DNA from: a virus | Virus record (IMG/VR): IMGVR_UViG_3300047564_001958 | Coordinates: 1-35,369 of that record | Direction: 5' to 3' (one strand) | DNA length: 35,369 bases | Part shown: piece after piece, positions 15,997-35,369 of the stretch | Layout: every line of letters begins with the position of its first letter | How positions within the stretch are numbered: the stretch's first letter is position 1 | Made by a program: the position numbers and the translations under genes | Notes under the pieces: model-generated | What the model was told of the DNA's origin: nothing | Seen by the model: only the letters and a program-made list of their open reading frames with translations | Databases searched by the model: none

Positions 15997-16602
15997 ATGA
16001 AGGTATCATTATTTAATAATTTAATTTGGAAAGTCTCTCATTCAAGTGAACATATTTGTAGAGAGATTCAAACTGTAGTTGATGAAATTTCATTAAAGAA
16101 TGATCGTAGTGTTCTATCTCACATTTCAGTAGGTTCATTACCTACAATTGTTCATGGTAGTCACGATGGGATGTATTCCCTTCAACTATTCAATAAGTAT
16201 GAAGATATCTTGTCTGAGTTTTTAGATTTTGTTGATTGGGAGATTCAACAATATTGTAAATCGGTTTCTTGGAAACATAGTGACTATAGATTTATTCATT
16301 CTTGGATGAATATGACACAAAATGATACATATCAAGAGTGGCATATTCATGCCAATTCAACTATATCTGGAGTCTACTATCACAATACTTCTGTGGAACA
16401 AGGTGGAATTATATTTAAGAATCCAAATCCATATGTTCATCTGAATGTTTTTCCTGGTTTAGAAAGTCATCCAGCAGGAATTCACTTTGCACCAGAACCA
16501 AATACATTGTTTCTATTTCCATCGTGGATGGAGCATAAGACAGATAGAAATAGAAGTGATAGAGATAGAACAAGTATTGCATTCAATATAACCACATATT
16601 GA
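15997..16602 (+). CDS. Putative 2-oxoglutarate/Fe(II) dioxygenase (PF13759-like)
   Basis: This 201-residue protein starts 16 bases after tRNA-Thr. It shows the layout of the 2OG-Fe(II) family common in cyanophages. EWH116IH118ANSTISGVYYH supplies the first iron-ligand region. LFLFPSWMEH180 supplies the distal histidine, and DR191TSIAFN carries the arginine that binds 2-oxoglutarate. Such enzymes couple decarboxylation of 2OG to hydroxylation of a substrate; the substrate is unknown here. A related protein is encoded at 30766 within the halogenase/oxygenase array, sharing the FPxWMxH and R-hydrophobic-strand ends. The gene precedes the tail-fibre genes, so a role in modifying virion proteins is conceivable. 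The family is secure; substrate and timing are not. Confidence 0.8.
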   Translation: MKVSLFNNLIWKVSHSSEHICREIQTVVDEISLKNDRSVLSHISVGSLPTIVHGSHDGMYSLQLFNKYEDILSEFLDFVDWEIQQYCKSVSWKHSDYRFIHSWMNMTQNDTYQEWHIHANSTISGVYYHNTSVEQGGIIFKNPNPYVHLNVFPGLESHPAGIHFAPEPNTLFLFPSWMEHKTDRNRSDRDRTSIAFNITTY

Positions 16603-16609
16603 CAACTTG

Positions 16610-16617
16610 TATAAATA
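16610..16617 (+). promoter_or_regulatory. Late promoter (TATAAATA) for the fibre gene block
   Basis: A perfect late octamer between the oxygenase stop and the GTG start at 16646, with AGAAGG in the leader. Confidence 0.72.
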
Positions 16618-20169: not shown

Positions 20170-23100
20170 ATGGCATTAACAAGACTTAAGAATATTATTA
20201 CATCTAGAACTGGTCGTATTATTTACGTTAACCCAGATGATTTTGATGCATCAGATTCATATGACAATAGGGGAAACTCTTCACTTCGACCATTTAAAAC
20301 ACTTCAACGTGCATTCCTTGAGGTAGCACGATTCTCATATCGTGTTGGTCTGTCAAACGACGAATTTGATGCTTTTACCGTTTATCTATTCCCATCTGAT
20401 TACATTATTGATAATAGACCAGGAACATCTACATATTCTGATATTGTTCCTTTTGATGCCAATACTAACTTTGATATTAACAGTCCATCAAACGTTCTTT
20501 ATAAGTTTAATTCGCAAGATGGTGGTGTGATTGTACCTAGAGGTTGTTCTATTGTTGGTACTGATCTTAGAAGAACTAAAATTACACCTAAGTATGTACC
20601 ATATCCAACAACTAGTTCTTCCTTAGGTATTACATCACTCAATGAACCACCAACTGCAGCAATTTTCCGTGTAACTGGTGGTTGCTACTTCTGGCAGATG
20701 TCATTCTTTGATGGTGATAGCAATGGTGTATATTACAAACCAGATGATACATCACAGATTGCACCTAATTTCTCTCACCACAAACTAACTTGTTTTGAAT
20801 TTGCAAGCAAATCAGACTTAGATCTTTACTATCAAAAGATTTCGAAAGGATATGCATCCATTCCTGATACTTCTGGTATTGTCGCACAGGACCAAATTCA
20901 GGCACGTGTTGAGGAAAATAGAATTGTTGGTCCTATCTCCGATGAATATAGAGTTTCACAGATTATTCGTAACGGTCAAACTGTAACTGCGTTCACTGTA
21001 GATGAACTTGGAAATCCAGTCAATCATGGATTCTCAGTTGGTGTTGCTGTTAACGTTTCTGGTGTTACTGGACCTACAGACTCAGATGCTCTATTGTATA
21101 ATGGTTCTTTCCTACTAACTTCTGCATCTGGTAACCAGTTCACATATCAAGTATCTGCAGAACCATCTGGTAATGCTATTGGTTCCAATATTCTAGTTAA
21201 AGTTGAAATTGACACTGTTGACTCTGCTTCACCATACATCTTCAACTGTTCATTAAGATCTGTTTGGGGTGTAAATGGAATGCACGCTGATGGTGGAAGA
21301 GCAACTGGTTTCAAATCAATGGTTGTTGCACAGTTCACTGGTATTTCCCTACAGAAAGATGATCGTGCTTTTGTAAGATACAATCCATCGACTGGTGCTT
21401 ATGATGATGCTGGATCTGGAGCACATATTGATGGTACTACAAGATATAAAAAAGGATGGAGACATTGCCACATTAAGGCATCTAACGACGCATTTATTCA
21501 GGTCGTTTCAGTGTTCGCAGTTGGATTTGGTGATCACTTCTTTGCGGACAGTGGTGGTGACATGTCTATTACCAACTCTAACTCTAACTTTGGTTCACTG
21601 TCTCTCCGTTGTAAAGGATTTAAGGCAGCAGCATTTACCAAAGATAAGGCAGGTCAGATTACTCATATCATTCCACCTAAGTCACTTGCTGACGTTAATG
21701 AGATCTCAATTAACTGGACTCAAATTGATATTCAAAAGACTAAGCAAGTTGGTAATACTGGAAGACTATATCTCTATGGATATACTTCTCAGACTGCACC
21801 CCCACCAACTAAGGTTCAGGGATATACAATTGGTGCAAGACAAGATGATACAGTACCAGATAAGATTTATGTTCAACTAGTGGTGTCTGGTTCAACAGCA
21901 CCATCAATTCAAACTGCAAGAATCACACCATATGGTCCTACCGTAACTGGTACTTCTGCAAATACATCTGGTAACCCAATTAAATGGGATAGTGCAAATT
22001 CCCAGTGGTATATTCAGGTTGAGGGTGCAACAAACACAATCTATACTACTATTGTTGGTAATGTTAAGTATAATAATGTTGCATTCACACCAACAACATT
22101 TATTAAGAGAGTTCCTGATGCTCGTGTTCTTAAGGATAGAATCTATCGTTTCCGTTATGTTTTAGATAAAGATGCTTTCCCACTACCACGTGCTCCAATC
22201 ACTGGTTTTGTAATGCAACCACGTTCATCTGAAGTTAATTCACCTTCATATAACAAAGTGTATTATGTTTATGAAGTTGAGACATTCCAGACATTTGAGA
22301 GGGGTGTTAAAGATGGCATCTATTATCTAACAATGTTGGAAGCATCTGTTGCTCCTTCAACTTCAAACTTCAATGATTATAAATTCTCACAAAGTGTAAC
22401 TGAAGTTTATCCTGCGTTTGACCGTGATAATCCAAATGCAGATCCAACAGAATCAGTTTCTGTTGCCGACAATATTATTATTGGTAAAGTATATTCTACT
22501 GATGGTGCGACTCCAACACCAAATCTTGATGCCAAGAGAAGTATTACGAAGGAAGCAGTATTGCACTGGGTTGCTGAAGTTGAGAATAACTTAGGTTATA
22601 ACTCAAATAATCAGTCAATTTCTGGAACTGTAATTACAGCACGTCTTGGTGATGCTGAAGCTCGCAAGATTCCTGTAAAGATTAATGCAGATGGTTCAAA
22701 TGCTCCAGTATTAGTTGAACTCCGTCGTCACTCAATTCTACGTTCTGGTAACCACACATTTGAATATCTTGGTTTCGGTCCAGGAAACTATTCAACTGCA
22801 TTCCCCTCAACTCAGGTTGAGGTTCTCACTCAAGAACAAGTTAAACTATCACAATCACTAAGAGAAGCAGCAGGTGTTGCATTCTACTCTGGTCTAAACT
22901 CTAATGGTGACCTATTTATTGGTAACCAGGTTGTTAATCCAGTTACTGGACAGATCACCAATGAAGATATCGCACAATTGAATGTTATTGGTGAGGAGAA
23001 TACATCAATTCAAACATTCTCTGAACTGATTCTTACTGATAAACTTACGGTTCTTGGTGGTGCATCTAACCAGTTAGAATCACTGTTCGTTGGTCCTGTT

Positions 23101-23733
23101 ACTTTCACTGGTAAAGTTACATCAAGTAACAATATTCAGGCAAATAAGATCACATTTTCCAATGATGATGGTACAGTTCTTAAGCAGGCATTCCTTGCTA
23201 AAGATGATGGAACAGGTCAACCTATAATCGATGGAACACCAGCATTTAATGAAGGTGATATCATTTATAATATTGATTGGACCGTTGGTAAATCAATGGG
23301 ATGGATTTATGGATCTGGCACTTGGTATCAGTGGGGTCTAACTGATACTGCTGGATTCGAATCTGTACGATCTGGTACTAATAACTTCTGGGGTATCGGT
23401 GCAACACCTACAACTGCATATAAATTAAACGTTGGTGGTAATTTAAATGTAGGTGGAAATCTATCAGTAACTGGATCTTATGGTTTAGCAGGTAGATATA
23501 AGTTTGCAACTGGGCAAGCAAACAACAACAATGGTGTTACTTACTCAGGTAATGGAGCAACCTCTAGTTTTGCAATTAGTCCTGGTCACACATCATTCTC
23601 TGTTCTTGTTACCTTGAATGGTGTTCTTCAGATGCCAACAGTTGACTATAATGTTAATGGTAATGCTGTTGTGTTTGCTGGTACTCCACCCGCAACAGGT
23701 GATATGATTCAGATTCGTGAATTACCTATCTAA
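20170..23733 (+). CDS. Large tail-fibre-like virion protein with beta-helix N-terminus
   Basis: This is an 1187-residue protein. The N-terminal motif GRIIYVNPDDFDASDSYDNR, then PFKTLQRAFLEVARFSYRVG and FTVYLFPSDY, is the classic opening of a right-handed parallel beta-helix, used by phage fibre and tailspike proteins. Repeated strands continue (IFNCSLRSVWGVNGMHADGG, then FADSGGDMSITNSNSNFGSL). The C-terminal 85 residues (FAISPGHTSFSVLVTLNGVL, then AVVFAGTPPATGDMIQIREL) form a small domain that I recognise as recurrent at the ends of cyanophage structural proteins. No catalytic polysaccharide-lyase residues could be assigned. It likely forms a trimeric fibre. No late-promoter octamer is visible just upstream, so it is probably read through from 16610. 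Confidence 0.66.
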   Translation: MALTRLKNIITSRTGRIIYVNPDDFDASDSYDNRGNSSLRPFKTLQRAFLEVARFSYRVGLSNDEFDAFTVYLFPSDYIIDNRPGTSTYSDIVPFDANTNFDINSPSNVLYKFNSQDGGVIVPRGCSIVGTDLRRTKITPKYVPYPTTSSSLGITSLNEPPTAAIFRVTGGCYFWQMSFFDGDSNGVYYKPDDTSQIAPNFSHHKLTCFEFASKSDLDLYYQKISKGYASIPDTSGIVAQDQIQARVEENRIVGPISDEYRVSQIIRNGQTVTAFTVDELGNPVNHGFSVGVAVNVSGVTGPTDSDALLYNGSFLLTSASGNQFTYQVSAEPSGNAIGSNILVKVEIDTVDSASPYIFNCSLRSVWGVNGMHADGGRATGFKSMVVAQFTGISLQKDDRAFVRYNPSTGAYDDAGSGAHIDGTTRYKKGWRHCHIKASNDAFIQVVSVFAVGFGDHFFADSGGDMSITNSNSNFGSLSLRCKGFKAAAFTKDKAGQITHIIPPKSLADVNEISINWTQIDIQKTKQVGNTGRLYLYGYTSQTAPPPTKVQGYTIGARQDDTVPDKIYVQLVVSGSTAPSIQTARITPYGPTVTGTSANTSGNPIKWDSANSQWYIQVEGATNTIYTTIVGNVKYNNVAFTPTTFIKRVPDARVLKDRIYRFRYVLDKDAFPLPRAPITGFVMQPRSSEVNSPSYNKVYYVYEVETFQTFERGVKDGIYYLTMLEASVAPSTSNFNDYKFSQSVTEVYPAFDRDNPNADPTESVSVADNIIIGKVYSTDGATPTPNLDAKRSITKEAVLHWVAEVENNLGYNSNNQSISGTVITARLGDAEARKIPVKINADGSNAPVLVELRRHSILRSGNHTFEYLGFGPGNYSTAFPSTQVEVLTQEQVKLSQSLREAAGVAFYSGLNSNGDLFIGNQVVNPVTGQITNEDIAQLNVIGEENTSIQTFSELILTDKLTVLGGASNQLESLFVGPVTFTGKVTSSNNIQANKITFSNDDGTVLKQAFLAKDDGTGQPIIDGTPAFNEGDIIYNIDWTVGKSMGWIYGSGTWYQWGLTDTAGFESVRSGTNNFWGIGATPTTAYKLNVGGNLNVGGNLSVTGSYGLAGRYKFATGQANNNNGVTYSGNGATSSFAISPGHTSFSVLVTLNGVLQMPTVDYNVNGNAVVFAGTPPATGDMIQIRELPI

Positions 23734-24636: not shown

Positions 24637-25257
24637 ATGGCACTTCGTAAATTTTCACAACCTATTGCTAATTCTGGATTTAGGGCAGGATCAGTTGCTG
24701 CTGGATTTCTTGGTGAAAGACTATATTGGTATTATGAGGGTAATGACTGCAGGAGTTATATGGGAAACTGGAATTATTCCAGTGAACAATACAATATGAC
24801 AACTCTAGGTGAATTTGGAAATAGTTGGATCCATGGATGGGGTGGAAGTGGCAGAACATATTTATTAACAGTAAATAATTTACCAGCTCATAGTAAATTA
24901 AGATATACTTGTAATATTCATATGGTAGATTCTTGGGATAATGAGTATAATAATGTAAGGGTTAATGATAATAATGGCAATGAATTTCAAATTGCAGAAT
25001 GGAGAAAGAACTATGGTAATGCATATGTTGATAGTCTCAGTACAAGTAATGGTGGATCAGTAACTCAAAATTTCAATAGAACATATTCTTATGTTCCATG
25101 GGGTGGGCAACGTTCTGGTAATGGATATATTACTGTTACTAGTAATTGGTATAATCATTCTAGATCTCAATTCCAAGCATGGCATAGAACGGACCTTGAT
25201 CAGGGACAAGGTGATGAAGCATATTACATCAGTCATGTTCAAATAGATCTGCAATAA
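24637..25257 (+). CDS. Tyr/Trp-rich beta-sandwich-like fibre-associated protein
   Basis: This 206-residue protein starts two bases after the previous stop. It is rich in Tyr, Trp, Asn and Gly, typical of carbohydrate-contacting phage proteins. The best motif is LTVNNLPAHSKLRYTCNIHM followed by VDSWDNEYNNVRV (about residues 77-110), which I recall as a beta-sandwich pattern in which strands flank an acidic DSWD turn that may bind calcium. No enzyme motif is visible. The C-terminus (AYYISHVQIDLQ) looks like a closing strand. Its place between fibre-like genes and the glycine-rich adhesin suggests a receptor-binding or tip domain. Family not named with confidence. Confidence 0.5.
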   Translation: MALRKFSQPIANSGFRAGSVAAGFLGERLYWYYEGNDCRSYMGNWNYSSEQYNMTTLGEFGNSWIHGWGGSGRTYLLTVNNLPAHSKLRYTCNIHMVDSWDNEYNNVRVNDNNGNEFQIAEWRKNYGNAYVDSLSTSNGGSVTQNFNRTYSYVPWGGQRSGNGYITVTSNWYNHSRSQFQAWHRTDLDQGQGDEAYYISHVQIDLQ

Positions 25258-25265
25258 TATAAATA
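25258..25265 (+). promoter_or_regulatory. Late promoter (TATAAATA) for the adhesin and downstream array
   Basis: A perfect late octamer overlapping the preceding stop region and 35 bases before the adhesin ATG at 25300. I see no other promoter or terminator between here and the halogenase genes, so it may drive them too. Confidence 0.65.
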
Positions 25266-25299: not shown

Positions 25300-26103
25300 A
25301 TGAGTACACTTAAGGTAACTAATATCCGAGACATCTCAGGAGCAGGGGGATTCTATCTTAACTCTGGGACTATTTCTGCCCAGGGTACTCTGACAGTATC
25401 TAACCTGGTTATTAACGGAACGATCTCGGGATCAAATACACAATACCTACCTGCACAAGGTGGTAATTCTGGTAAGTATCTAACAACTGACGGAACCAAT
25501 TCATCTTGGGTTACCGTTAACGTAGATGCTGGTCCAATGTCCATGTCATTCTTCACATCTTCTGGTACATGGAATAGACCAACTGGATGTAAATACATCT
25601 ATGTAAGATGTCAAGCAGGTGGTGGAGGTGCATCAGGTCACGGTGAATCTGGTGGTGCTGGTGGATATTCAGAAACCATCGTTAACGTTCAATCAGTATC
25701 ATCAGTTTCTGTAACCGTTGGTGGTGGAGGTGGTGGAACTTGGTATTTTGGATTTGGTGGTAACGGTGGTTCTTCATCTTTTGGTTCTTACTGCTCTGCT
25801 GGTGGTGGATACGGAGCAAATAATCAGAACTCTCACTCTGGTGGTGTAGGTGGTAACGGATCTGGTGGTTATTTCACTTGCCACGGTGGTGGGGGTCAGT
25901 CTCATGCTCCTCATGGTGGTGGAACTGGTGGTTCATCACACTTTGGTGGATCTACTGCTGGTGGTTGGCCAAATGGTGGTAACTTCTCTCACAACCACCA
26001 ATCACACTCTGCTTGGGGTTCTGGTGGATCTGGAGGACACTTCCACTCATTCAGAGGATCTGATGGTCGTGTTGGTTGTGTAACAGTAATGGAGTACAAG
26101 TAA
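25300..26103 (+). CDS. Glycine/histidine-rich adhesin-like tail-fibre protein
   Basis: This is a 267-residue protein. The N-terminus (STLKVTNIRDISGAGGFYLN) is a common fibre start. Residues about 84-100 contain SSGTWNRPTGCKYIYVRCQA, the entry of a glycine-rich domain, followed by about 150 residues dominated by Gly. T-even gp38-type adhesins use stacked polyglycine-II helices with variable loops to bind receptors, and the composition here fits that plan. It is also unusually rich in histidine, with HNH and HFH close together near residues 230-248. No catalytic residues are apparent. The ribosome site AAGGA is far (25 bases) from the ATG, but no better in-frame start exists. It likely sits at the fibre tip, though structure is inferred. 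Confidence 0.65.
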   Translation: MSTLKVTNIRDISGAGGFYLNSGTISAQGTLTVSNLVINGTISGSNTQYLPAQGGNSGKYLTTDGTNSSWVTVNVDAGPMSMSFFTSSGTWNRPTGCKYIYVRCQAGGGGASGHGESGGAGGYSETIVNVQSVSSVSVTVGGGGGGTWYFGFGGNGGSSSFGSYCSAGGGYGANNQNSHSGGVGGNGSGGYFTCHGGGGQSHAPHGGGTGGSSHFGGSTAGGWPNGGNFSHNHQSHSAWGSGGSGGHFHSFRGSDGRVGCVTVMEYK

Positions 26104-26104
26104 A

Positions 26105-26638
26105 ATGAAGAAAGCACTAGTAGAATACAACGGAATGGTTAAGGAGGTTGTGGATCCTGGTGAGGAGTATCCAATTTACTCTGGTGAAGGAGCTACAATG
26201 CAGTGGGTTGATGCCCCTGACGATGTTACAATCTTCTGGACCCTAGAATATAGCCCAGAGCAAGGTAAATCAGTTTGGGTTGAAAGAGATCTTCCTTATG
26301 CAGATCCAGTATTAAGAAGAAAGATTGCATATGGTGAAGCAGAAATACAATTAGGTATGTTATATGATGACATTGTTTCTGGGAATCTTGAAAGTGGAAA
26401 GTGGGTTTCTCACATTCAAAACGTGAAAGCAACGGTTCCCAAACCTCCTGCATCTGCATATGAAGATGTTCAAGATCCTCAAGAGGAAATTGATGCTAAG
26501 ATACAGGCAGATTCAACTCGTGAACCATCAGCTCAAGCACAAATGAAGTTTGCACCTATGGATGCACCTGCATGGTTACATGCTGATGGATGGTCTGGTC
26601 CTAATTATCCACTTGGATTTGAAGAAGATAAAGAATGA
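26105..26638 (+). CDS. Tail-fibre-associated protein, assembly-like (unassigned)
   Basis: This 177-residue acidic protein starts one base after the adhesin stop. The most recognisable segment (about residues 70-118) reads LRRKIAYGEAEIQLGMLYDD followed by IVSGNLESGKWVSHIQNVKA. It resembles a short helical element (Tyr-x-x-x-x-x-QL-x-ML-x-DI, a Gly-Asn turn, then Trp-x-x-x-I-x-x-VK) that I recall in phage proteins near tail-fibre genes. The N-terminal part is beta-like (VKEVVDPGEEYPIYSGEGAT) and the C-terminus is Pro/Ala-rich. It could be a fibre assembly factor or a minor virion protein. It is the last gene before the halogenases, 15 bases upstream. Confidence 0.5.
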   Translation: MKKALVEYNGMVKEVVDPGEEYPIYSGEGATMQWVDAPDDVTIFWTLEYSPEQGKSVWVERDLPYADPVLRRKIAYGEAEIQLGMLYDDIVSGNLESGKWVSHIQNVKATVPKPPASAYEDVQDPQEEIDAKIQADSTREPSAQAQMKFAPMDAPAWLHADGWSGPNYPLGFEEDKE

Positions 26639-26653
26639 TTTAAGTAAATTATT

Positions 26654-28138
26654 ATGAAATTTGACACAATTTGTATTGTTGGTGGAGGCAGTGCTGGATG
26701 GATGACTGCCTCTACTCTTGTAAAAGCATATCCAGATAAAACAATTTATCTTGTAGAATCACCCTCAGTTTCGACAGTTGGAGTTGGTGAATCTACAACA
26801 CAATTTATTCGCAGATGGTTATCATTCCTTGAACTTGAAGATGAGGAATGGATGCCTGCTTGTGATGCAACTTATAAGTATAGTGTTAGGTTTGAGAACT
26901 TCAATGAAGGCAAACCATTTCATTATCCATTTGGTGAACCAGAATTAAATATTCCGATTCATGACTGGTTTGTTTATCGTCAATTAGAAGGTGAAGAATC
27001 AATTGGATTTGATGATACTTTCTGGCAATATCTGAATGCTATTGAGAATGGGAAGTATTTACCTAAAGAATACACTAAGAAACACAGTGGATTCCATTTT
27101 AATGCAGTTAAGTTTGCTGAATGGTTGAGAGAAAACTATGCTATTCCTAAAGGTGTCAAACATATTAAAGGACATGTAGTTGATGTACAACAATCTGAGA
27201 ATGGATTTATTGAAGCAGTCCATTTAGATACATCTGTATTCATCAAAGCAGATTTATTCTTTGATTGTACGGGATTCAAGTCACTATTACTTACAGAAAC
27301 ACTTAAAGTTCCATTTCAAACTTTTGGTGATAAGTTATTGAATACTCATGCATATGCAGTTCAAGTTCCATATCAGGACAAGAGAAGAGAACTGAAACCA
27401 TATACTAATTGTACAGCATTAAGTAGTGGGTGGGTATGGACTGTTCCTGTTTGGGGTAGAATTGGTACAGGATATAACTATTCAGAGAAGTTTATCTCAC
27501 ACGAAGATGCACTTACTGAGTTTAAACAATTCTTAGGTGACAGATTACCAGAAGATGCTACAATTAGAAATATTCAGTTTAGAACTGGTATTAGTCAAAG
27601 AGTGTGGGATAAGAATGTAGTTGCTATTGGATTGTCTGGTGGGTTTATTGAACCACTAGAATCAAATGGATTACTCAGTGTTCATGAATGGTTAATGCAG
27701 TTTGTTGAAATCTGTCAACGACCAGTAATCACTACTTTTGATATGGACTGCTATAATTGGAAATGTATTTCATTCTTTAAAACATTCTCTGATTTTGTTG
27801 CACTTCACTATGCATTAACAACTCGTTGTGATACTCCATACTGGAAATATATTACTAATGAATATCATTTTACTGGAGACAGTCCACTATTTCCAAGTAT
27901 TCATGATGCACGAACAACGTCTAATTTAAATACAATTAATTGGGAAAATCAGGGACCAAATCTTTGCATCATGGCAGGACACAATTACAATCCAGTATTC
28001 AAAACCAAGATTGGAGATAGATTGAATTGGAATCTATTGAGGGGTAAAATAGAAGAGATACATAATAATAGAAAGAGAACAACTGAAACTCTGCAAGATA
28101 TTTACGATTATTATTCTGGAGGAATGTATGCTAATTGA
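26654..28138 (+). CDS. Flavin-dependent tryptophan-type halogenase A
   Basis: This 494-residue protein resembles FAD-dependent halogenases of the PrnA/RebH type (about 530 residues). The N-terminal GGGSAGWMTA (residues 10-19) is the FAD-binding loop and VGVGEST follows. K75 in CDATYKYSVRF corresponds to the catalytic lysine of PrnA (Lys79) that carries hypohalous acid. The halogenase motif WxWxIP appears as W260VW262TVP265, with Val in place of Ile. FIEPLESNGLL is the conserved active-site Glu/Ser region. Such enzymes use FADH2, O2 and halide to chlorinate or brominate an activated ring, and need a flavin reductase, which is not seen here. The gene overlaps its paralogue downstream by 11 bases. 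Substrate specificity cannot be read, and related enzymes act on free tryptophan, peptides or other aromatics. Confidence 0.88.
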   Translation: MKFDTICIVGGGSAGWMTASTLVKAYPDKTIYLVESPSVSTVGVGESTTQFIRRWLSFLELEDEEWMPACDATYKYSVRFENFNEGKPFHYPFGEPELNIPIHDWFVYRQLEGEESIGFDDTFWQYLNAIENGKYLPKEYTKKHSGFHFNAVKFAEWLRENYAIPKGVKHIKGHVVDVQQSENGFIEAVHLDTSVFIKADLFFDCTGFKSLLLTETLKVPFQTFGDKLLNTHAYAVQVPYQDKRRELKPYTNCTALSSGWVWTVPVWGRIGTGYNYSEKFISHEDALTEFKQFLGDRLPEDATIRNIQFRTGISQRVWDKNVVAIGLSGGFIEPLESNGLLSVHEWLMQFVEICQRPVITTFDMDCYNWKCISFFKTFSDFVALHYALTTRCDTPYWKYITNEYHFTGDSPLFPSIHDARTTSNLNTINWENQGPNLCIMAGHNYNPVFKTKIGDRLNWNLLRGKIEEIHNNRKRTTETLQDIYDYYSGGMYAN

Positions 28139-29756
28139 ATCAGTATGTATTGTTGGTGGGGGTAGTTCTGGTTGGATGACTGCCGCAGCACTAAGTAAAC
28201 TATGCCCAAATTTACAGATTGCTTTGATTGAATCTCCAAATATTAAAACAGTTGGAGTTGGTGAATCAACTCTTGGACATTTTAATAAGTTCTTGAGACT
28301 TTTAGAACTCAAAGATGAGGAGTGGATGCCAGCATGTAATGCAACTTATAAGAATTCTATTCGTTTTACTAACTTTGCACAAAAAGATTCTGGAAGTTTT
28401 GAATACCCATTCCAAAGGGGATTTGATTATACAGATAAAGGTGATTTCCTTCAATTGAATATTTACAATGAAATCAAACTAAGAAATCCAGAATTTAAAT
28501 ATCAGTTTGCTGAGTTTTATGCAACATCTAATACTTTACTTGCCAAGCACTGTAAGCAAACTAATAATGCTGATGGTAGATTGAGATTATTTGATTTTGA
28601 ACAAGATACTGCATATCATTTAGATGCAGAACTATTTGGTCAATATTTAAAGGATGAGATTGCAATTCCTAATGGAGTTCTTCATATTGTTGATGATGTT
28701 GTTGGGCAAGTTCGTGAGGAGGGTTATCATCATAAAGAACATGGAATGTTCAATGAAATCTTCACCGAAACAGGATTAAGTATTAAAGCAGATTTGTTTA
28801 TTGATTGTACTGGATTTAAATCTAAACTATTAGAGGGTAGTTGTGGATCACAGTTCATTTCATTTAATAATATTTTGGCAAATGATACTGCATGGGCAGT
28901 TCGTCTTCCTTATGGTGAAAATAGGGAGGAAGAGATGGAGAATGTAACAGATTGCACCGCATTAGACAATGGATGGGTGTGGAACATTCCTCTCTGGAAT
29001 CGTATTGGAACTGGGTATGTATTTTCTAGCAATTTTATTCTCCCAGAAGATGCTAAGAAAGAGTTTCTAAATCATCTGGCACAACGTTATGGTGAAGATA
29101 GAGTTAAAGACTTAGAACCATTTATGATTAACATTAAGCATGGTAAGAGGAGACGTGCTTGGATCAATAATGTTGTAGGTATTGGTCTCTCTTATGGTTT
29201 TGTTGAACCACTTGAATCAACTGGTCTCTTGACAACTCATGAGAATATCATTAGACTGGTTGAAGTTCTGAATAGAAGGGGTGGTTTCGTAACAAGATCA
29301 GAAAAAGAAGCATATAACTATTCAGTTGATAAAGAATTGACTGGGTTTGCAAAGTTTGTATCTATGCATTATGCTTTCTCAGGAAGAACTGATACACCAT
29401 ATTGGAAATGGTGTACTGAAATTAATGAGTATGATATGGATATGATTGATGGGTTAGTTCGTGACAACAGAACTTATTCAAGAATTGCAGAATGTTTAGA
29501 TCAAGGTATTATTGACCCAGATCTAGGTGGAATTCCATATATTTTATCTGGGTTGGGTGTTGAATGTATTTCAACTGAATCAGTTTCTAACATGAGGAAA
29601 GATAGAGCAGGTATTGAATATGATACTATGAATCTTGATATGATTAAAGGTAAATTTGAGAAGTATTTTGAAGAAACAACAGAGTATGTTAAGAGTTTAC
29701 CGTCACACTATGAATATCTGAAACAAAACATTTACAATGGAGATGAATATGCGTAA
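28128..29756 (+). CDS. Flavin-dependent tryptophan-type halogenase B
   Basis: This 542-residue protein is a paralogue of halogenase A and overlaps it by 11 bases, with a GGAGG site just before the start. All signature elements are present: GGGSSGWMTA, VGVGEST, K75 in CNATYKNSIRF, a canonical W283VW285NIP288, and FVEPLESTGLL. It has an extra insertion near residues 95-150 (LQLNIYNEIKLRNPEFKYQF) and a longer C-terminus than A. The two copies are clearly diverged, so they may act on different substrates or positions, or one may work as partner of the other. Halogenation is inferred from residues. FADH2 would have to come from the host or from a phage gene outside this window. Confidence 0.9.
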   Translation: MLIESVCIVGGGSSGWMTAAALSKLCPNLQIALIESPNIKTVGVGESTLGHFNKFLRLLELKDEEWMPACNATYKNSIRFTNFAQKDSGSFEYPFQRGFDYTDKGDFLQLNIYNEIKLRNPEFKYQFAEFYATSNTLLAKHCKQTNNADGRLRLFDFEQDTAYHLDAELFGQYLKDEIAIPNGVLHIVDDVVGQVREEGYHHKEHGMFNEIFTETGLSIKADLFIDCTGFKSKLLEGSCGSQFISFNNILANDTAWAVRLPYGENREEEMENVTDCTALDNGWVWNIPLWNRIGTGYVFSSNFILPEDAKKEFLNHLAQRYGEDRVKDLEPFMINIKHGKRRRAWINNVVGIGLSYGFVEPLESTGLLTTHENIIRLVEVLNRRGGFVTRSEKEAYNYSVDKELTGFAKFVSMHYAFSGRTDTPYWKWCTEINEYDMDMIDGLVRDNRTYSRIAECLDQGIIDPDLGGIPYILSGLGVECISTESVSNMRKDRAGIEYDTMNLDMIKGKFEKYFEETTEYVKSLPSHYEYLKQNIYNGDEYA

Positions 29757-30522
29757 TCCATTTAGAAAGAAACCATGGATTAGATTTTACTCATTAGAGA
29801 GATATGTAAATGATCTGTATCCAATCGTTCCAACTTCTTCAGTTAAACGTAAATGGAATACTGAAGAAGTTAAAAAGAATGTTTGCCCTTTTAGTGGATC
29901 ACAATCATCTTCAAATTGTCCAGGTATTAAGCAATTTTCACGAATGGGGTGGGTTCTACTTGCTCCTGCTGATTTTGTAATTAAAACAAATGGAGATGGG
30001 GTTACATTTAAGTGGGAAGTGCCTTACTTGTTTAATGGCAATAACAGTTACATTTCCGAACATATCCCTGAGCAAACTGTTCCAATTATGGATAGTGCTA
30101 GAGACACTTTACAGACTGTAGTTAAAGTTGAAACACCATGGAGAGTTCGTGCTTCTGAAGATATTGTAATTTTACAAACACATGTTCACTGGAATAATGA
30201 AGAGAGATTCACTGCTGCTACTGGTATTCTAGATCCTAGGTATGCACTGCAGGCAAATGTGCAGTTGTTCTGGCATAAGTTGAATGATGAGGTTTGTGTT
30301 AAAGCAGGAACACCCCTTGCACAATATATTCCAATTCCAAGGAAATATATAGAAAAGGGTTGGTATGATATGATTGTAGATCATGCCAATGATAGTGATT
30401 TCGATTTAGAGAAATCATTTATGTTTGCGAATAGTTCTCACATTTTGAGATATGATTCTATTCAGGATCGAATTCGTAGAGCAATGAAAATTATTTCAAA
30501 TCATCCAGGGAGAACAAAATGA
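29749..30522 (+). CDS. DUF6065-like protein 1
   Basis: This 257-residue protein is read from the ATG at 29749, where GGAG precedes by six bases; ATGs at 29737 and 29743 are alternatives. It overlaps halogenase B by eight bases. The core matches my recollection of DUF6065: NCPGIKQFSRMGWVLLAPAD, then YISEHIPEQTVP, ETPWRVRASEDIVILQTHVH and VKAGTPLAQYIPIPRK. Trp and Pro positions and the G-x-P-L-x-Q-Y-I end suggest a small beta-barrel (cupin-like) protein, but no metal triad is evident. Biochemical function of this family is unknown to me. A second member lies at 31921. Repeated pairing with halogenase and 2OG oxygenase genes suggests a shared pathway or substrate-carrying role. Confidence 0.7.
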   Translation: MRNPFRKKPWIRFYSLERYVNDLYPIVPTSSVKRKWNTEEVKKNVCPFSGSQSSSNCPGIKQFSRMGWVLLAPADFVIKTNGDGVTFKWEVPYLFNGNNSYISEHIPEQTVPIMDSARDTLQTVVKVETPWRVRASEDIVILQTHVHWNNEERFTAATGILDPRYALQANVQLFWHKLNDEVCVKAGTPLAQYIPIPRKYIEKGWYDMIVDHANDSDFDLEKSFMFANSSHILRYDSIQDRIRRAMKIISNHPGRTK

Positions 30523-30788
30523 AAGTAGAAGATCTTATTGCTGATTTTAATAATCAGTTGCAAAAAGCCAATGAAGATGTTAACCAACTGGAAGCAGATT
30601 TTGCTGACATGAAACTTAATCCATATGGTGTTACTAAAGTTGATTTTACCAGACGAAATCAAATTAGAGAACAGATTCTTCGTCTAGAGGGTGCTATTGA
30701 AGGTCTAACTCTAGCAAAGGCACATTGTGAAGAACTTGGTGGCACATGGGGGGAACCAACTCAAGATGTACAAGACGATCTATCCTGA
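30519..30788 (+). CDS. Small coiled-coil protein of unknown function
   Basis: This 89-residue protein overlaps the previous gene by four bases (ATGA). It is largely helical with two heptad-like segments: FNNQLQKANEDVNQLEADFA (about 10-29) and RRNQIREQILRLEGAIEGLT (about 45-64), joined by a loop with NPYGVTKVD. The C-terminal segment has one Cys and GGTWGEPTQ. No enzyme motif is present. The helical hairpin suggests a dimeric adapter or scaffold, perhaps bridging the modifying enzymes or presenting their substrate. That is speculation from position only. Confidence 0.6.
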   Translation: MKVEDLIADFNNQLQKANEDVNQLEADFADMKLNPYGVTKVDFTRRNQIREQILRLEGAIEGLTLAKAHCEELGGTWGEPTQDVQDDLS

Positions 30789-31407
30789 TGTACAACAACC
30801 AGAAGATGCACAACCAGTAAATATAATTCCAACATATATTTGGAAGTTTAGTTACGACTTCAAGTATGTGGAAAATTTGTTTAAGAGTGTTATAGATTCT
30901 ATGATTGCAGATACACCAGATAATCATACATCTGGTTCTGCCCTAGAAATAGGAACTGCATTTTCTACAGTGCGTAATAGGCATTTTAGGGGTGATGAAT
31001 ATCAACCACATTGTTGGGATTTACTTCAAGATTATAATACTTGGTTAGAATCCAGATTGTTTTATGTTTGGCATTATCTAAATTATTTTGGTAAATCCCC
31101 ACAAATTATCAACTCATGGTTGAATATTCACAAAAGAACAGGTCAAACCTTGGAGCATAATCATAATCATGCTCCATTAGTAGTTTCTGCATATTTAAAC
31201 TTACCTGAGGGTTCTGGTCTTATTGAGTTTAGGGATCCATTAGAATATCACAAATATGGGTTACCATATGAACCTCAAGAGTTTCTATGGACACCAATTG
31301 AAATCAAAACTAACGATGTTTTGATTTTCCCTGGATGGATGAAGCATCGGACACAAGAAAGTAATTCCGATGAAGATAGAGTGGTCCTTACTTATAATAT
31401 TGGATAA
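30766..31407 (+). CDS. Putative 2OG/Fe(II) dioxygenase (PF13759-like) in the halogenase array
   Basis: This protein has 213 residues from the ATG at 30766; a GTG at 30727 would add 13 residues and lengthen the overlap with the coiled-coil gene, so I prefer the ATG. Iron-ligand motifs are H131NH133NH135APLVVSAYLN, GWMKH194 and DR205VVLTYNI. They match the layout in the oxygenase at 15997. The WNIHKRTGQTLE region before the first motif also fits. The triple His (HNHNH) leaves the exact ligand open; H133 and H135 are the likely positions. It probably hydroxylates an unknown substrate using 2OG and O2. Confidence 0.78.
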   Translation: MYKTIYPDVQQPEDAQPVNIIPTYIWKFSYDFKYVENLFKSVIDSMIADTPDNHTSGSALEIGTAFSTVRNRHFRGDEYQPHCWDLLQDYNTWLESRLFYVWHYLNYFGKSPQIINSWLNIHKRTGQTLEHNHNHAPLVVSAYLNLPEGSGLIEFRDPLEYHKYGLPYEPQEFLWTPIEIKTNDVLIFPGWMKHRTQESNSDEDRVVLTYNIG

Positions 31408-31934
31408 TGATAATAGAAATACCGAATGCAGTAGGTGATAACTATCAGGACAAAATAGAAGCATTAATATCCAGTGTTAATTGGAAATGGTGTTATTTAC
31501 CTGATGTGACATTTTGTGAGAATAATGAGGTTGAGGTTCCTGGATTTGCTCATCTACTCTATGATAAACATAGTGGATATGAAAGTACAGAACTTAGTTT
31601 CTTCTATCCACTTGCCCTAGAAATTGCATCAAAGGCAAATCAAAGAATAAGTCAATTTATTCGTATGAAAGTTGGTCTGTTGCTTCCAGGTAGGAATCAA
31701 CCAAACAATAAACATATTGACTTTCCGTTTCCACATACTACTGCAATTTATTATGTCTCAGATAGTGATGGTGATACCGTTTTCTATGATGGGTGTGATA
31801 TAATTCGTAGGTGTAACCCAGAAAAGGGAAAAGCAGTTGTATTTGATGGGTCAATTTATCACGCAAGTTCTTGTCCCATAAATTATAATAGAAGATTTGT
31901 TATTAATGTAAATTTTATCGATGAAGAACACTAA
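31407..31934 (+). CDS. Putative 2OG/Fe(II) oxygenase, prolyl-4-hydroxylase-like (P4H-1)
   Basis: This 175-residue protein starts in TAATG overlap with the previous stop. It contains a clean facial triad: H103-I-D105 in NKHIDFPFPHTTAIYYV, H152 in SIYHASS, and R163 in RRFVINVNF. The pattern HxD...H...R and the IYYV strand are typical of P4H-like 2OG enzymes common in cyanophages. Substrate unknown. Unlike host P4H enzymes there is no N-terminal peptide-binding domain, and the length (about 175) is near the minimal double-stranded beta-helix core. It lies between the two DUF6065-like genes. Confidence 0.83.
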   Translation: MIIEIPNAVGDNYQDKIEALISSVNWKWCYLPDVTFCENNEVEVPGFAHLLYDKHSGYESTELSFFYPLALEIASKANQRISQFIRMKVGLLLPGRNQPNNKHIDFPFPHTTAIYYVSDSDGDTVFYDGCDIIRRCNPEKGKAVVFDGSIYHASSCPINYNRRFVINVNFIDEEH

Positions 31935-32646
31935 AATATACTACTATCAGTTTGAGGGTGATGGATATATTCCAACACTTATGGGATCACCAATTTCTTT
32001 AGATGGTGTTGGGTTTGAACCTACCAGATATATTGAAGAGGTCGATAAGAATGCAACATATTATGAATGTCCTGCTTGGCAACATAAAGCAGTTCGAGAG
32101 TTTGTGATCAGATCAGTTCGTGATATGACTCTAGAAGTTGATGCTGTAAATGGTGTCATCAATTCTCCAAATATGAGACCAGATCAGTTCAATAAGTATA
32201 TACATCAACATAGAAATTTTACAGATTTTAATACAATCCAGTTACCAATTCCAATGCTTTTGTGTTGGACAAAAGAGAAAGATATTTGGGTTGAATTAAA
32301 ACCAGATCCTAGAACTGTTTTAAACAATTTTATTACTGTTGGTGGATGGTTCAACCTATCGGAATGGACAAGACCTCTTTCTTTTGCTATTGATATCGTC
32401 GATAATACAAAACCAGTTGTTATTAAGAGAGGTGATCCAATTTATAAAGTTTGTTTCTATAAAGAAGGTGACTTGACCCGTAACTTTATGCTAGAGAAAG
32501 GAACTCCAAATATGGATATGTTAAATGATGTACAAAAGAGAATTGCACTCAAAGATGTAATTCCTAATATCTCAAGAACTCTTCTTTTTGGTAAAAAGAA
32601 GGAAACGGAATCAAAGTGTCCATTTGCTTTCCTATTTAAGAAATGA
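31921..32646 (+). CDS. DUF6065-like protein 2
   Basis: This 241-residue protein overlaps the previous gene by 14 bases. It parallels DUF6065-like protein 1 in its second half: a Pro-rich strand (LPIPMLLCWTKEKDIWVELK), then NFITVGGWFNLSEWTRPLSF and VIKRGDPIYKVCFYKEGDL, matching GTPLAQYIPI of protein 1. Similarity is clear by eye in Trp, Pro and the GDPIYKVCFY end, but distant. The N-terminus (KIYYYQFEGDGYIPTLMGSP) differs from protein 1. The C-terminus is rich in Lys with KCPFAFLFKK. No catalytic residues could be named. Paralogy suggests it works in the same pathway as protein 1. Confidence 0.6.
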   Translation: MKNTKIYYYQFEGDGYIPTLMGSPISLDGVGFEPTRYIEEVDKNATYYECPAWQHKAVREFVIRSVRDMTLEVDAVNGVINSPNMRPDQFNKYIHQHRNFTDFNTIQLPIPMLLCWTKEKDIWVELKPDPRTVLNNFITVGGWFNLSEWTRPLSFAIDIVDNTKPVVIKRGDPIYKVCFYKEGDLTRNFMLEKGTPNMDMLNDVQKRIALKDVIPNISRTLLFGKKKETESKCPFAFLFKK

Positions 32647-33257
32647 TTACACAACAACCAACCATCATTATTGATAATTTCTTCGAAACACCTAATCAAG
32701 TGCGAGAGTGGGGATTGTCTTTAAATTTCTACAAAGGTGATAGGGGAAATTGGCCTGGGTATAGGACAGATCTCATCCACATGGTAGATGATAAATTTCA
32801 TTCACTGTTGTGTCAAAAGATTATTAAACATACATCTTATAATTATTTTAAACAGTTTGATGCAAGTTTTGCTTTATGTGATGAAACATGGGAATCTGGG
32901 TGGGTACACACAGATCCTATGGACTTTAATGTGGTTGGATTGATTTACCTTTCACCAAATCCACCTAAACTTATTCACTGTGGAACTACAATTTATGATG
33001 CTCCAGGGGATTATGTTAGTGGTGATTCTATATTCATTACAGATGTAAATGAAGAAGATCCAACCAAGAGACAGAGTGAGTCTAGACTTAAACATAACTC
33101 ACACTTCACTCCTAATCAAATTATAGAAAATCGATATAATCGTTGTATTATATTTGATGCTCGACAATGGCATTCTGCTGGTGAGTTCTTTGGTCATCCT
33201 GATGATAAACATGACCAACGTTTAACTATTGTGTTCTTTGGTGCTGCTAGATGGTAA
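32643..33257 (+). CDS. DUF6445-like putative 2OG/Fe(II) oxygenase 1
   Basis: This 204-residue protein overlaps its neighbour by four bases. It has the opening IIIDNFFETPNQVREWGLSL, a NWPGYRT motif, and GWVH89TD91PMDFNVVGLIYL with an HxD pair. QWH177SAGEFFG and QR193LTIVFF supply the distal histidine and 2OG-binding arginine. This is the order expected of a 2OG/Fe(II) fold. I recall the WPGxRT plus QWHSAGEFFG pattern as DUF6445, an uncharacterised relative. The next gene is a paralogue with the same motifs, so the pair arose by duplication. Substrate unknown. Confidence 0.75.
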   Translation: MITQQPTIIIDNFFETPNQVREWGLSLNFYKGDRGNWPGYRTDLIHMVDDKFHSLLCQKIIKHTSYNYFKQFDASFALCDETWESGWVHTDPMDFNVVGLIYLSPNPPKLIHCGTTIYDAPGDYVSGDSIFITDVNEEDPTKRQSESRLKHNSHFTPNQIIENRYNRCIIFDARQWHSAGEFFGHPDDKHDQRLTIVFFGAARW

Positions 33258-33868
33258 AACATCCCACAATTATTATTGATGATTTCTTTGAAACTCCTGA
33301 TCAAATTAGAACCTGGGCACTACAGCAAAAGTTCTACAAGCATGATGGTAATTATCAAGGATTAAGAAGTGATCTATTGACCATTATTGATCCAACAATG
33401 CAGCAACTGATGATCAATAAGATGCTAGAATACTCACATTTTTATTACATTGAAGCACTATATACTTCATTTCAATTGATAGATGAAACTTGGGGTGATG
33501 GGTGGATTCATAATGATTCAAAAGATTTAACTATTGCTGGTCTTGTTTATCTCACTCCAAATGCTCCACAGAATAGTGGAACAATCATTTATGATGATCC
33601 AGATTCCAATATGACGTTAGAACTAACAGAGGGTATTCAAAGGGCATTTGAAATTGAAGTTAATGAACTGGATGATATTAAAAGAAAAGAGTTAGAGATA
33701 CATAGGATTAAACATAATTCTCAGTTCAGAGTATCTCAGGTGATTGAGAATAGATATAATAGATGTGTTATTTTTGATTGTAAAAGGTGGCACGGTGCAG
33801 GACAATATTTTGGCAATACACCTGAAACTAGTAGATTAACTTTACCCTTTTTTGTGAAAGCAAGATGA
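33251..33868 (+). CDS. DUF6445-like putative 2OG/Fe(II) oxygenase 2
   Basis: This 205-residue protein overlaps the previous gene by seven bases and is its tandem paralogue. Shared elements are IIIDDFFETPDQIRTWALQQ, GWIH87ND89SKDLTIAGLVYL, IKHNSQFRVSQVIENRYNRC, RWH181GAGQYFG and SR195LTLPFF. The HxD, H and R residues are all kept, so it is likely active. The WPGxRT motif of copy 1 reads YQGLRSD here, a difference at a position that may line the substrate pocket. Both copies keep IENRYNRC, an odd block between the beta strands with a shared cysteine. Confidence 0.74.
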   Translation: MVKHPTIIIDDFFETPDQIRTWALQQKFYKHDGNYQGLRSDLLTIIDPTMQQLMINKMLEYSHFYYIEALYTSFQLIDETWGDGWIHNDSKDLTIAGLVYLTPNAPQNSGTIIYDDPDSNMTLELTEGIQRAFEIEVNELDDIKRKELEIHRIKHNSQFRVSQVIENRYNRCVIFDCKRWHGAGQYFGNTPETSRLTLPFFVKAR

Positions 33869-34506
33869 GACATGTAGTAGTTAGAGATGCAATTCCTAAG
33901 GAACTTTGTGATTATATTGCAATTGAATATCGTATGATTCGTGATAACATTCTGAGAACTGGTGGACCACCTTGGGATCCTACAGTTCCAGGTGCTTTTG
34001 CTATGTACTCTCCTATTTGTTTTGAGGCATTGAATGTGTATCTTCAACCAAAGATTGAAGAAGTCATAGGTAAAGATTTGCATTCTTCATACAGTTATGC
34101 TAGAATCTATGCGAAAGGGTGTGAATTAAAGAGGCACAAAGATCGAAGTTCATCTGAGTATGCAGTTAGTGCTTGTATTACCAAAGATGTTGATTGGCCA
34201 TTATACTTTGAATATGAAGATTCTGTAGAACCAGTTGAATTAAATGTTGGTGATATTGTAGTATTTCAAGGTCACAAATATTTTCACTGGAGGAGACCAT
34301 ATACTGGTGATGAACAAATTATGGGATTCCTACAATATGTTGATCAACATGGTGAGTGGAAGCATTATAAGTATGATGGTAGACCAATGATGGGAGCACC
34401 ATTTGAAACTGCACACCCAGATGTGCATGAAGAGATGAAAACTTTAAACGACGGTGTAATTGAATGTGATTTGGAGGACAATGAACAATGGACAAAATAT
34501 TTGTAA
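33865..34506 (+). CDS. Putative 2OG/Fe(II) oxygenase, P4H-like with HWRxP motif
   Basis: This 213-residue protein overlaps the previous gene by four bases. HxD is present as RH91KD93RSSSEYAVSA, and the distal ligand as GDIVVFQGHKYFH141WRRPY. The HWRxP ending marks a subgroup distinct from the other P4H-like genes here. An expected arginine/lysine in a later strand is less clear (GFLQYVDQHGEW). The N-terminus VVVRDAIPKELCDYIAIEYR is a typical P4H-like start. The last 40 residues are acidic. Two candidate distal histidines (137 and 141) leave the ligand choice open, with 141 favoured. Confidence 0.75.
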   Translation: MRHVVVRDAIPKELCDYIAIEYRMIRDNILRTGGPPWDPTVPGAFAMYSPICFEALNVYLQPKIEEVIGKDLHSSYSYARIYAKGCELKRHKDRSSSEYAVSACITKDVDWPLYFEYEDSVEPVELNVGDIVVFQGHKYFHWRRPYTGDEQIMGFLQYVDQHGEWKHYKYDGRPMMGAPFETAHPDVHEEMKTLNDGVIECDLEDNEQWTKYL

Positions 34507-35108
34507 TTGATGATATAATTCCTAAGGATTATCAGATTTGGGTAGAGGAAATTATTACCCAACAGAAAGAACTTCCATGGTATTATAAATCTAAAGCAAT
34601 TCATGATGGGTATCAAAAAGATTTAAGAAATGTATTTTGTTTGTTTCATTACTTGTATGAGGAGGAAACTAAGAAATCACCATTATTTGATGCTCTCTAT
34701 CCAATTTTGATGCATACTCATGATAAAGCACCAGAAGTTAGGTGGAATACTTTAGATCGAATGAGAATTAATTTAATGCCGAAGTTTAAGAATGCAGCAA
34801 ACGTTCCCTGGCACTTACCTCATGTTGATAATTATATTCGTAATGGATGGAATGCAATTTATTATGTAAATGATATGGGAGCACCTGATGATGGTGATAC
34901 CTTTATTTTTGAACAAAAGATGGAAGTATTTACACCTGAGGAGTCTGAAAAGATCTTAAAAGATAATTATTTTACTATTAAGAAAAAGATTACACCAAAA
35001 CGTGGAAGAATCGTTATATTTCCAACTTGTTATTTCCATGCATCTTCTTGGTCTAGTACAGTAGATAGATATGTTATCAATTGTAATTTAATTAATGAGG
35101 GTTTCTGA
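34488..35108 (+). CDS. Putative 2OG/Fe(II) oxygenase, P4H-like (P4H-2)
   Basis: This 206-residue protein overlaps the previous gene by 19 bases. It has a clean triad: H112-V-D114 in WHLPHVDNYIRNGWNAIYYV, H184 in CYFHASSWS, and R194 in DRYVINCNL. Motif order, the YFHASS end and the RYVINCN strand are very similar to P4H-1 at 31407, so the two are paralogues. The N-terminus starts FVIDDIIPKDYQIWVEEIIT, a helix common to this group. It is probably an active hydroxylase of unknown substrate. Confidence 0.82.
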   Translation: MDKIFVIDDIIPKDYQIWVEEIITQQKELPWYYKSKAIHDGYQKDLRNVFCLFHYLYEEETKKSPLFDALYPILMHTHDKAPEVRWNTLDRMRINLMPKFKNAANVPWHLPHVDNYIRNGWNAIYYVNDMGAPDDGDTFIFEQKMEVFTPEESEKILKDNYFTIKKKITPKRGRIVIFPTCYFHASSWSSTVDRYVINCNLINEGF

Positions 35109-35109
35109 C

Positions 35110-35369
35110 ATGGATGAAAATCAAGTTTCAAGTATTATTAAATCTGGATCTGATTGGGCATTGTATAAAGTTCCATTCATCGAAGCAAATTTAAGTAATT
35201 TCATATATGATTTAAATCTCGCACATAAGAATTTTAAGGATGTATTTGTTAATGTTGATAGTTCACTTACTAGAAAACAAGAATTAACAGTAGGTGATTT
35301 ACCCAGTCTGTGGGAAAGATCACAGAATATTGATAACTTTATTGAATCAGAATTGAATGATCCTGGTTC
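35110..35369 (+). CDS. Unidentified gene, truncated by the window end
   Basis: An ATG at 35110, one base after the previous stop, opens a frame that runs to the window end without a stop (86 full codons). I translated it by hand. The protein starts MDENQVSSIIKSGSDWALYK and continues with an Asn/Asp-rich helical section (NFIYDLNLAHKNFKDVF, then SLWERSQNIDNFIESELNDP). I do not recognise it. The same strand and spacing make it a further member of the halogenase/oxygenase array. Confidence 0.6.
   Translation, partial: MDENQVSSIIKSGSDWALYKVPFIEANLSNFIYDLNLAHKNFKDVFVNVDSSLTRKQELTVGDLPSLWERSQNIDNFIESELNDPG

Follow-up and report, generated by a model that had tools for sequence, protein, structure and literature searches.

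The IMG/VR virus record IMGVR_UViG_3300047564_001958 is a single complete contig of 35,369 bases (the window, meaning the whole stretch of DNA analysed here) from a T4-like cyanomyovirus whose shaft fibre is closest to those of Synechococcus phages. From position 26654 to the contig end at 35369, which falls inside the last open reading frame (ORF), all genes lie on the + strand and most neighbours overlap by 1-26 nt. A first-pass annotation had described this stretch as an array of modifying enzymes, and all of the genes that it named are present. The sequence indicates that the unit begins upstream of 26654, with a glycine-rich fibre tip and a probable tip chaperone placed behind a late-promoter motif, and surveys of related viruses found a halogenase beside nearly every tip of this class.

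The tip gene (G; 25300-26103, +) encodes a 267-amino-acid adhesin with a tumour necrosis factor (TNF)-like and a Gly-rich domain, matching PF21722 (35.8 bits) and the tail family phrog_863. A structure model built from 26 sequences (mean predicted local distance difference test score, pLDDT, 82) superimposes on gp24 (7ypx), the receptor-binding fibre tip of cyanophage Pam3, with a Z score of 21.6, a root mean square deviation (rmsd) of 2.2 Å over 179 residues and 31% identity; by its predicted fold, the product would be a TNF-like/Gly-rich tip of the Pam3 gp24 type. From its family and its position after the shaft genes, we infer that it sits at the fibre end and binds the receptor. Its Gly-rich part is abundant in Asn, Tyr and His, and Tyr149, His179 and His202, which are among its invariant polar or aromatic residues, are candidate modification sites. 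Directly 3′ of the tip, 26105-26638 (+) encodes a 177-amino-acid protein of phrog_1787 that is probably the tip chaperone (C). In Pam3, the distal Gly-rich loops of the trimeric gp24 tip are covered by gp25, a chaperone that is itself a trimer (PMC9608196). A PDB sequence search found no match between the 177-amino-acid protein and gp25 or any solved chaperone; its C-terminal part is common to phrog_9114 and phrog_2504 proteins, which follow other tip types.

Fifteen nucleotides past the end of the probable chaperone gene starts the first of two tandem halogenase genes, Hal1 (26654-28138, +), followed by Hal2 (28128-29756, +), both of phrog_2928. They match PF04820 at 344 and 322 bits (cut-off 21; E=2e-102 and 7e-96) and VirX1 (6qgm) at E=1e-104 and E=3e-178, respectively, Hal2 being the nearer to VirX1 and 52.5% identical to the second copy of Syn10/Syn9. 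Both keep the GGGSxG and WxWx[VI]P motifs together with the catalytic Lys (ATYK) and Glu (EPLES): Hal2 has GGGSSG, WVWNIP, K75 and E363, and in Hal1, where the second motif reads WVWTVP (I to V), both catalytic residues are retained. Both are thus, as the first-pass annotation had it, predicted to be intact flavin halogenases of the PF04820/VirX1 group. VirX1 itself is a trimer with an unusually open active site that takes bulky substrates (PMC8407142). Across the halogenase clusters collected, the catalytic Lys is present in 199 of 200 and the Glu in 193 of 200; the best bacterial relatives are only ∼36% identical, and no close bacterial source was found.

Overlapping the end of Hal2 is the gene for D6065a (29737-30522, +; phrog_7084), and then comes a small charged/coiled-coil protein (c; 30519-30788, +) that is 46-53% identical to same-position orthologues in Syn9 and S-CREM1; a second D6065 protein, D6065b (31921-32646, +; phrog_17480), lies among the oxygenases. 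These two had been called DUF6065-like. Direct assignment to DUF6065 (PF19541) was rejected, as neither protein gave a Pfam or NCBIfam match above cut-off. The two are mutually related (hhalign probability 94%, E=1.4e-7), and their family reaches DUF6065 above cut-off solely via a protein of another contig (L079:7168-7902, 27.9 bits); they are accordingly termed DUF6065-related here, a transitive relation, and appear not to be members of PF19541. A PDB sequence search with the tip, the chaperone and D6065a returned nothing meaningful, and the folds of the tip and D6065a came from structure prediction. The D6065a model (pLDDT 90.7) matches dUTPases (PF00692) with Z ∼10.8 over 128 residues (rmsd 4.4 Å), but the dUTPase catalytic motifs are not conserved throughout the family. 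In the family (n=34), C61, H109 and W135 are invariant, Asp166 is found in 28 of 34 and Arg136 in 23 of 34; the invariant residues differ from what we take to be the dUTPase signature. A dUTPase-like fold is therefore all that the model suggests, and a dUTPase-type function is not claimed. In four further clusters (L076, L079, L081 and L083), two to four tandem DUF6065-related genes stand beside halogenases and oxygenases, with no recognised tip within the stretch examined.

The remaining genes, all on the + strand, encode predicted 2-oxoglutarate (2OG)/Fe(II) oxygenases: Ox5 (30763-31407; PF13759-type, 52 bits, cut-off 27), Ox6 (31407-31934; P4H-like, phrog_274 E=9e-39, PF13640 sub-threshold; HID...H...R), the DUF6445 pair Ox8 (32643-33257; PF20043 42 bits; HTD...H...R) and Ox9 (33251-33868; 48 bits, cut-off 24 for both; HND...H...R), the HWRxP-type Ox10 (33865-34506; phrog_2954 E=2e-47; HKD...H) and the P4H-like Ox11 (34488-35108; PF13640 28 bits, cut-off 27; HVD...H...R). 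Profile matches and motifs thus bear out the classes named earlier for these genes. The claim that active sites are kept in nearly all of the enzymes stands for both halogenases and for the five oxygenases that carry the signature HxD/E...H...R/K (Ox6, Ox8, Ox9, Ox10 and Ox11). Ox5 has HNH132...H195...R in place of HxD, and half of its PF13759-type relatives likewise lack a strict HxD/E. The triad is retained in nearly all oxygenase relatives. Because catalytic residues are kept almost everywhere, both halogenase and oxygenase activity are probably under selection. The ORF cut by the contig end (35095-35369) is 57% identical over 77 amino acids to L253:17799-18461, a 220-amino-acid protein with WHDHHW...H...R motifs, and is for that reason probably the N-terminus of a seventh 2OG-type oxygenase. 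Cassette relatives also include members of JmjC_2, a family that contains known protein His/Arg hydroxylases.

Two side observations concern the same enzyme class. The labels of PHROG 274, 2954 and 1644 (‘DNA endonuclease V’, ‘ferrochelatase’ and ‘minor coat protein’) sit on 2OG-type HxD...H proteins and look wrong, and similar names occur in GenBank records. Elsewhere in the window, a lone further PF13759 oxygenase (15997-16602) has three tRNA genes as neighbours; the virion structural gene downstream of it has a separate TATAAATA at 16610.

That T4-type late-promoter motif, TATAAATA, also occurs at 25258-25265 (+), in the 42-nt gap preceding the tip gene and 35 nt ahead of its ATG. Its count over the whole window is not above chance, and it is informative only through its placement, here and in relatives, where 60 of 167 unique first-tip starts have an exact TATAAATA nearby, compared with 0 of 136 D6065a starts and 0 of 830 oxygenase starts. 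Scans for sigma-70 promoters and terminators gave no excess over shuffled sequence. The array had been said to show no promoter of its own, but with its start placed at the tip the unit does have a promoter-like signal. Because the motif precedes the tip gene, we infer that tip and enzymes share an operon and are expressed late.

To follow the unit across viruses, IMG/VR was scanned with the halogenase, the chaperone, D6065 and two tip sets as starting points, each scan taking the best 80 of several hundred relatives. The tip-side scans gave 280 viral loci that had a tip and 4 kb or more of sequence behind it, and all 280 carried both halogenase and chaperone. Since some IMG/VR loci stem from the same contigs, clustered counts were also obtained: with tips grouped at 95, 90, 80 and 70% identity, a halogenase accompanied 110 of 110, 78 of 78, 42 of 42 and 16 of 16 clusters, respectively. 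For very distant tips, located on contigs of up to 354 kb, the figure was 55 of 56. The lone exception, L524, has a distant tip and a chaperone without halogenase; this tip is short and weak-scoring, and the virus is of a different kind. Approached from the chaperone side, the linkage held in 60 of 60 loci, and a fibre-linked halogenase is present in each of the 20 isolate records that have the chaperone (tblastn with Gly-rich queries in isolates was blunted by low-complexity masking). The gene order G(1-3)-C-H(1-2)-D-c-oxygenases is conserved, with the chaperone directly 3′ of the tip in all loci of the first scans but not in the distant viruses L513 and L510, where the halogenase lies between tip and chaperone. 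Rather than the random and independent occurrence that the first-pass annotation had named as evidence against itself, order and linkage are strongly conserved. Tips, chaperone, halogenase(s) and oxygenases follow one another in this order in Syn9/Syn10, S-CREM1, S-RIM44, P-TIM40, Sf-FR1, Sf-FP1, S-WAM1, S-SZBM1 and P-RSM6, most of which also have D6065; the first-pass annotation had missed that such arrays were already present in sequenced phages. In the other direction, 37 halogenase clusters lack a tip of this class in their vicinity, P-SSM2, Syn1 and S-MbCM6 being examples of phages with solo halogenases. Because halogenases also occur without this tip, the dependence is one-way, of tip on halogenase.

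The layout varies among distant viruses. Minimal cassettes (L477, L488 and L513) consist of tips, chaperone and halogenase with few or no oxygenases, and in them recurs a ∼410-amino-acid protein (L477:8962-10188, L488:13592-14827 and L513:12918-14210) that belongs to phrog_1458 in the two tested. A convergent layout is seen in L097, L084, L091, L521, L522, L528 and L530, where tips and chaperone occupy one strand while the halogenases, DUF6065-related proteins and oxygenases form a long array on the opposite one. In L510 (10695-15492), about seven oxygenase genes stand in a row on the strand opposite the tip-halogenase-chaperone unit.

Closely related viruses offer a natural exchange. The shaft gene of the window (20170-23733, +) belongs to phrog_529, and an orthologue was found in S-SZBM1 virions (PMC9146016 Table 1). 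Two S-RIM44 isolates are 95-97% identical on either side of the locus and ∼71-79% identical in the shaft. In Np_42_0711, the locus holds three Gly-rich tips and the chaperone together with two halogenases, D6065 and oxygenase genes. In Np_05_0604, a different, non-Gly-rich tip is accompanied by another chaperone-like protein and a single 2OG oxygenase. S-SSM4 has a related phrog_529 shaft with neither tip nor halogenase, and S-CAM8 combines a related shaft with another tip, another chaperone, several 2OG oxygenases and a carbamoyltransferase, again with no halogenase. From these comparisons it follows that enzyme set and tip type change together. When the other S-RIM44 tip was used as a control query, a single IMG/VR relative turned up, too few for statistics. 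In the S-CAM8 locus (L326, 9005-15848), it is a NolO-like carbamoyltransferase and several 2OG oxygenases that accompany the different tip and chaperone, which suggests that other tips have other chemistry sets.

Between the shaft-associated genes and the tip gene of the window, 24637-25257 encodes an aromatic-rich 206-amino-acid protein with no Pfam or PHROG match, the sole relative found being in P-RSM6 (L008:3103-4362, 44%).

Tip and enzymes almost certainly form an evolved functional unit. Because they appear to share an operon and nearly every such tip has a halogenase, these marine cyanobacterial viruses probably decorate their own host-binding tips chemically: on balance, we favour a host-recognition cassette in which the tip adhesin is modified by the accompanying enzymes inside the infected cell, ahead of assembly, and we consider it somewhat probable that the tip itself is their substrate. 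The first-pass annotation had envisaged a working pathway that adds halogens and hydroxyls, and a conserved modifying set with catalytic residues is indeed present, although its start at the tip and chaperone had been missed; of the three targets then put forward, the fibre side is favoured, specifically the adjoining Gly-rich tip, over a host molecule or a metabolite. Tip and enzymes would be made together, late in infection. The chaperone would hold the Gly-rich loops, and the tip would probably be modified while chaperone-bound, the halogenases adding halogen to aromatic side chains and the 2OG oxygenases hydroxylating others (candidates are His, Asn, Asp, Pro and Arg). The enzymes look cytoplasmic, that is, located where tips fold and assemble. 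If trimeric like dUTPases, the D6065 proteins may assist in docking enzymes onto the tip, itself trimeric; dUTPases are trimers, as are VirX1 and the Pam3 tip and chaperone, and such a three-fold docking role is a guess by analogy. The modified tip would then be mounted on the fibre, its decorations tuning receptor binding, stiffness or stability.

Several points weigh against this account. The linkage is seen directly in the sequences; on its own it does not prove the identity of the substrate, which we read from the pattern of association. Weakly related tips were under-sampled in the scans, and L524 indicates that the tip fold in itself does not require a halogenase. Six or seven oxygenases are many for one 267-amino-acid protein. 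Virion proteomics of S-SZBM1 found shaft genes 51-54, and not tips 48/49, chaperone or halogenase (PMC9146016). Unmodified S-SZBM1 tips should give detectable tryptic peptides (41-53% computed coverage), and the lack of such peptides is equally compatible with tips that are rare, absent or heavily modified. The search considered Met oxidation and a few standard changes, with no halogen or other hydroxyl modification (PMC9146016), and the result is for that reason uninformative rather than contrary.

The same linkage could arise if the enzymes modified another virion protein of the locus instead of the Gly-rich tip, whether the shaft, the proteins encoded from 23765 or 24637, or the chaperone. 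These genes neighbour the enzymes and travel with them at the same locus, and work on S-SZBM1 has established shaft and 23765-type proteins as parts of the virion (PMC9146016). However, the shaft family phrog_529 is also found without halogenase, in S-SSM4 and S-CAM8, the 24637 protein occurs in just one of the compared isolates, and only tip and chaperone are constant companions of the enzymes, so we hold this rather unlikely. Quite unlikely, too, is alteration of a host surface molecule or receptor that would block re-adsorption and superinfection or free progeny, with the tip linked through use of the same receptor; it would equally yield strict linkage and joint exchange, but the FAD (flavin adenine dinucleotide)- and 2OG-dependent enzymes are of cytoplasmic type with no obvious signal peptides in their translations, which would put mature surface molecules out of reach, and a late-promoter motif in common with the tip points to action during assembly.

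Published proposals favour auxiliary metabolism, in which the enzymes would either halogenate or hydroxylate a small molecule (an antibiotic-like one, as proposed for phage prnA) or act in 2OG/nitrogen signalling: phage prnA has been explained as antibiotic protection (PMC9964418, PMC2984593) and phage 2OG oxygenases by nitrogen signalling, DNA repair or general protein/lipid modification (PMC3037559, PMC9964418), and VirX1 halogenates many small aromatics in vitro (PMC8407142). With no carrier, synthetase or exporter gene within the array, and with the constant presence of the tip and the joint exchange of the enzyme set left unexplained, a metabolic role is very unlikely here; it may still hold for solo phage halogenases near psbA or nrd genes. 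Nucleotide or DNA modification is hinted at by the D6065a match to dUTPases (Z ∼10.8), yet the invariant Cys61, His109 and Trp135 presumably depart from the dUTPase signature, Asp166 is kept in just 28 of 34, replication genes show no link and the tip linkage would go unexplained, which leaves it extremely improbable. No better is the chance that unrelated enzymes merely hitch-hike in a variable locus without functional tie: cyanomyovirus genomes do have known hyperplastic regions (PMC2984593), but fixed gene order across very diverged contigs, retained catalytic residues and near-universal linkage even at 70% tip clusters have already largely refuted it.

Preferring modification of the tip has consequences beyond this locus. 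The enzyme families and the arrays in sequenced genomes were known; what appears new is the tie between a host-recognition tip and a cassette for halogenation and hydroxylation, and a literature search found no paper connecting phage halogenases or oxygenases to a fibre tip. A near-obligate tie to one tip class shifts the metabolic or antibiotic reading, names a concrete protein to examine and makes the native substrate of VirX1-type phage halogenases directly testable. Should the tip prove to be the substrate, this would to our knowledge be the first halogenated virion protein. The enzyme set would have evolved to halogenate and hydroxylate one defined protein, phage host range would depend on chemistry invisible in sequence alone, and recombinant tips produced without the enzymes would be inactive or misleading. 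More generally, it is an evenly balanced proposition that virus-encoded enzymes halogenate the receptor-binding adhesins of the same virus and hydroxylate them multiple times, each tip type having a matching enzyme set that is exchanged along with it, so that a chemical layer of host-range determination lies beyond protein sequence and constitutes the native role of VirX1-type viral halogenases.

Known systems share parts of this arrangement. Mycobacteriophages glycosylate their own virion proteins with phage-encoded enzymes, a case of a virus modifying its structural proteins; here, in contrast, the chemistry would be halogenation and hydroxylation and the apparent aim the receptor-binding tip. 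MibH (5UAO) and QhpG/LodB belong to the same flavoprotein superfamily, with matches found to the group of the window halogenases, and act on peptide- or protein-bound Trp, so such flavoenzymes can act on polypeptides; they are only distantly related, however, and are tied to the maturation of RiPPs (ribosomally synthesized and post-translationally modified peptides) or quinocofactors. Much closer is VirX1 of cyanophage Syn10 (PDB 6QGM), of which Hal2 is a close relative by phmmer, and both Syn10 and the near-identical Syn9 carry the same kind of tandem pair followed by D6065. VirX1 has been portrayed as a broad in vitro biocatalyst, and PMC8407142 names neither a native substrate nor a cassette context. 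The Pam3 gp24-gp25 pair (7YPX; PMC9608196) shares the predicted tip fold and the two-gene order of tip then chaperone. Finally, the account of Alteromonas phage A5 (PMC10579305) describes an exchangeable host-recognition module of fibre and cognate chaperone, in which tip and chaperone likewise pass between viruses as a unit; compared with the module as set out there, the unit described here also holds a large set of modifying enzymes.

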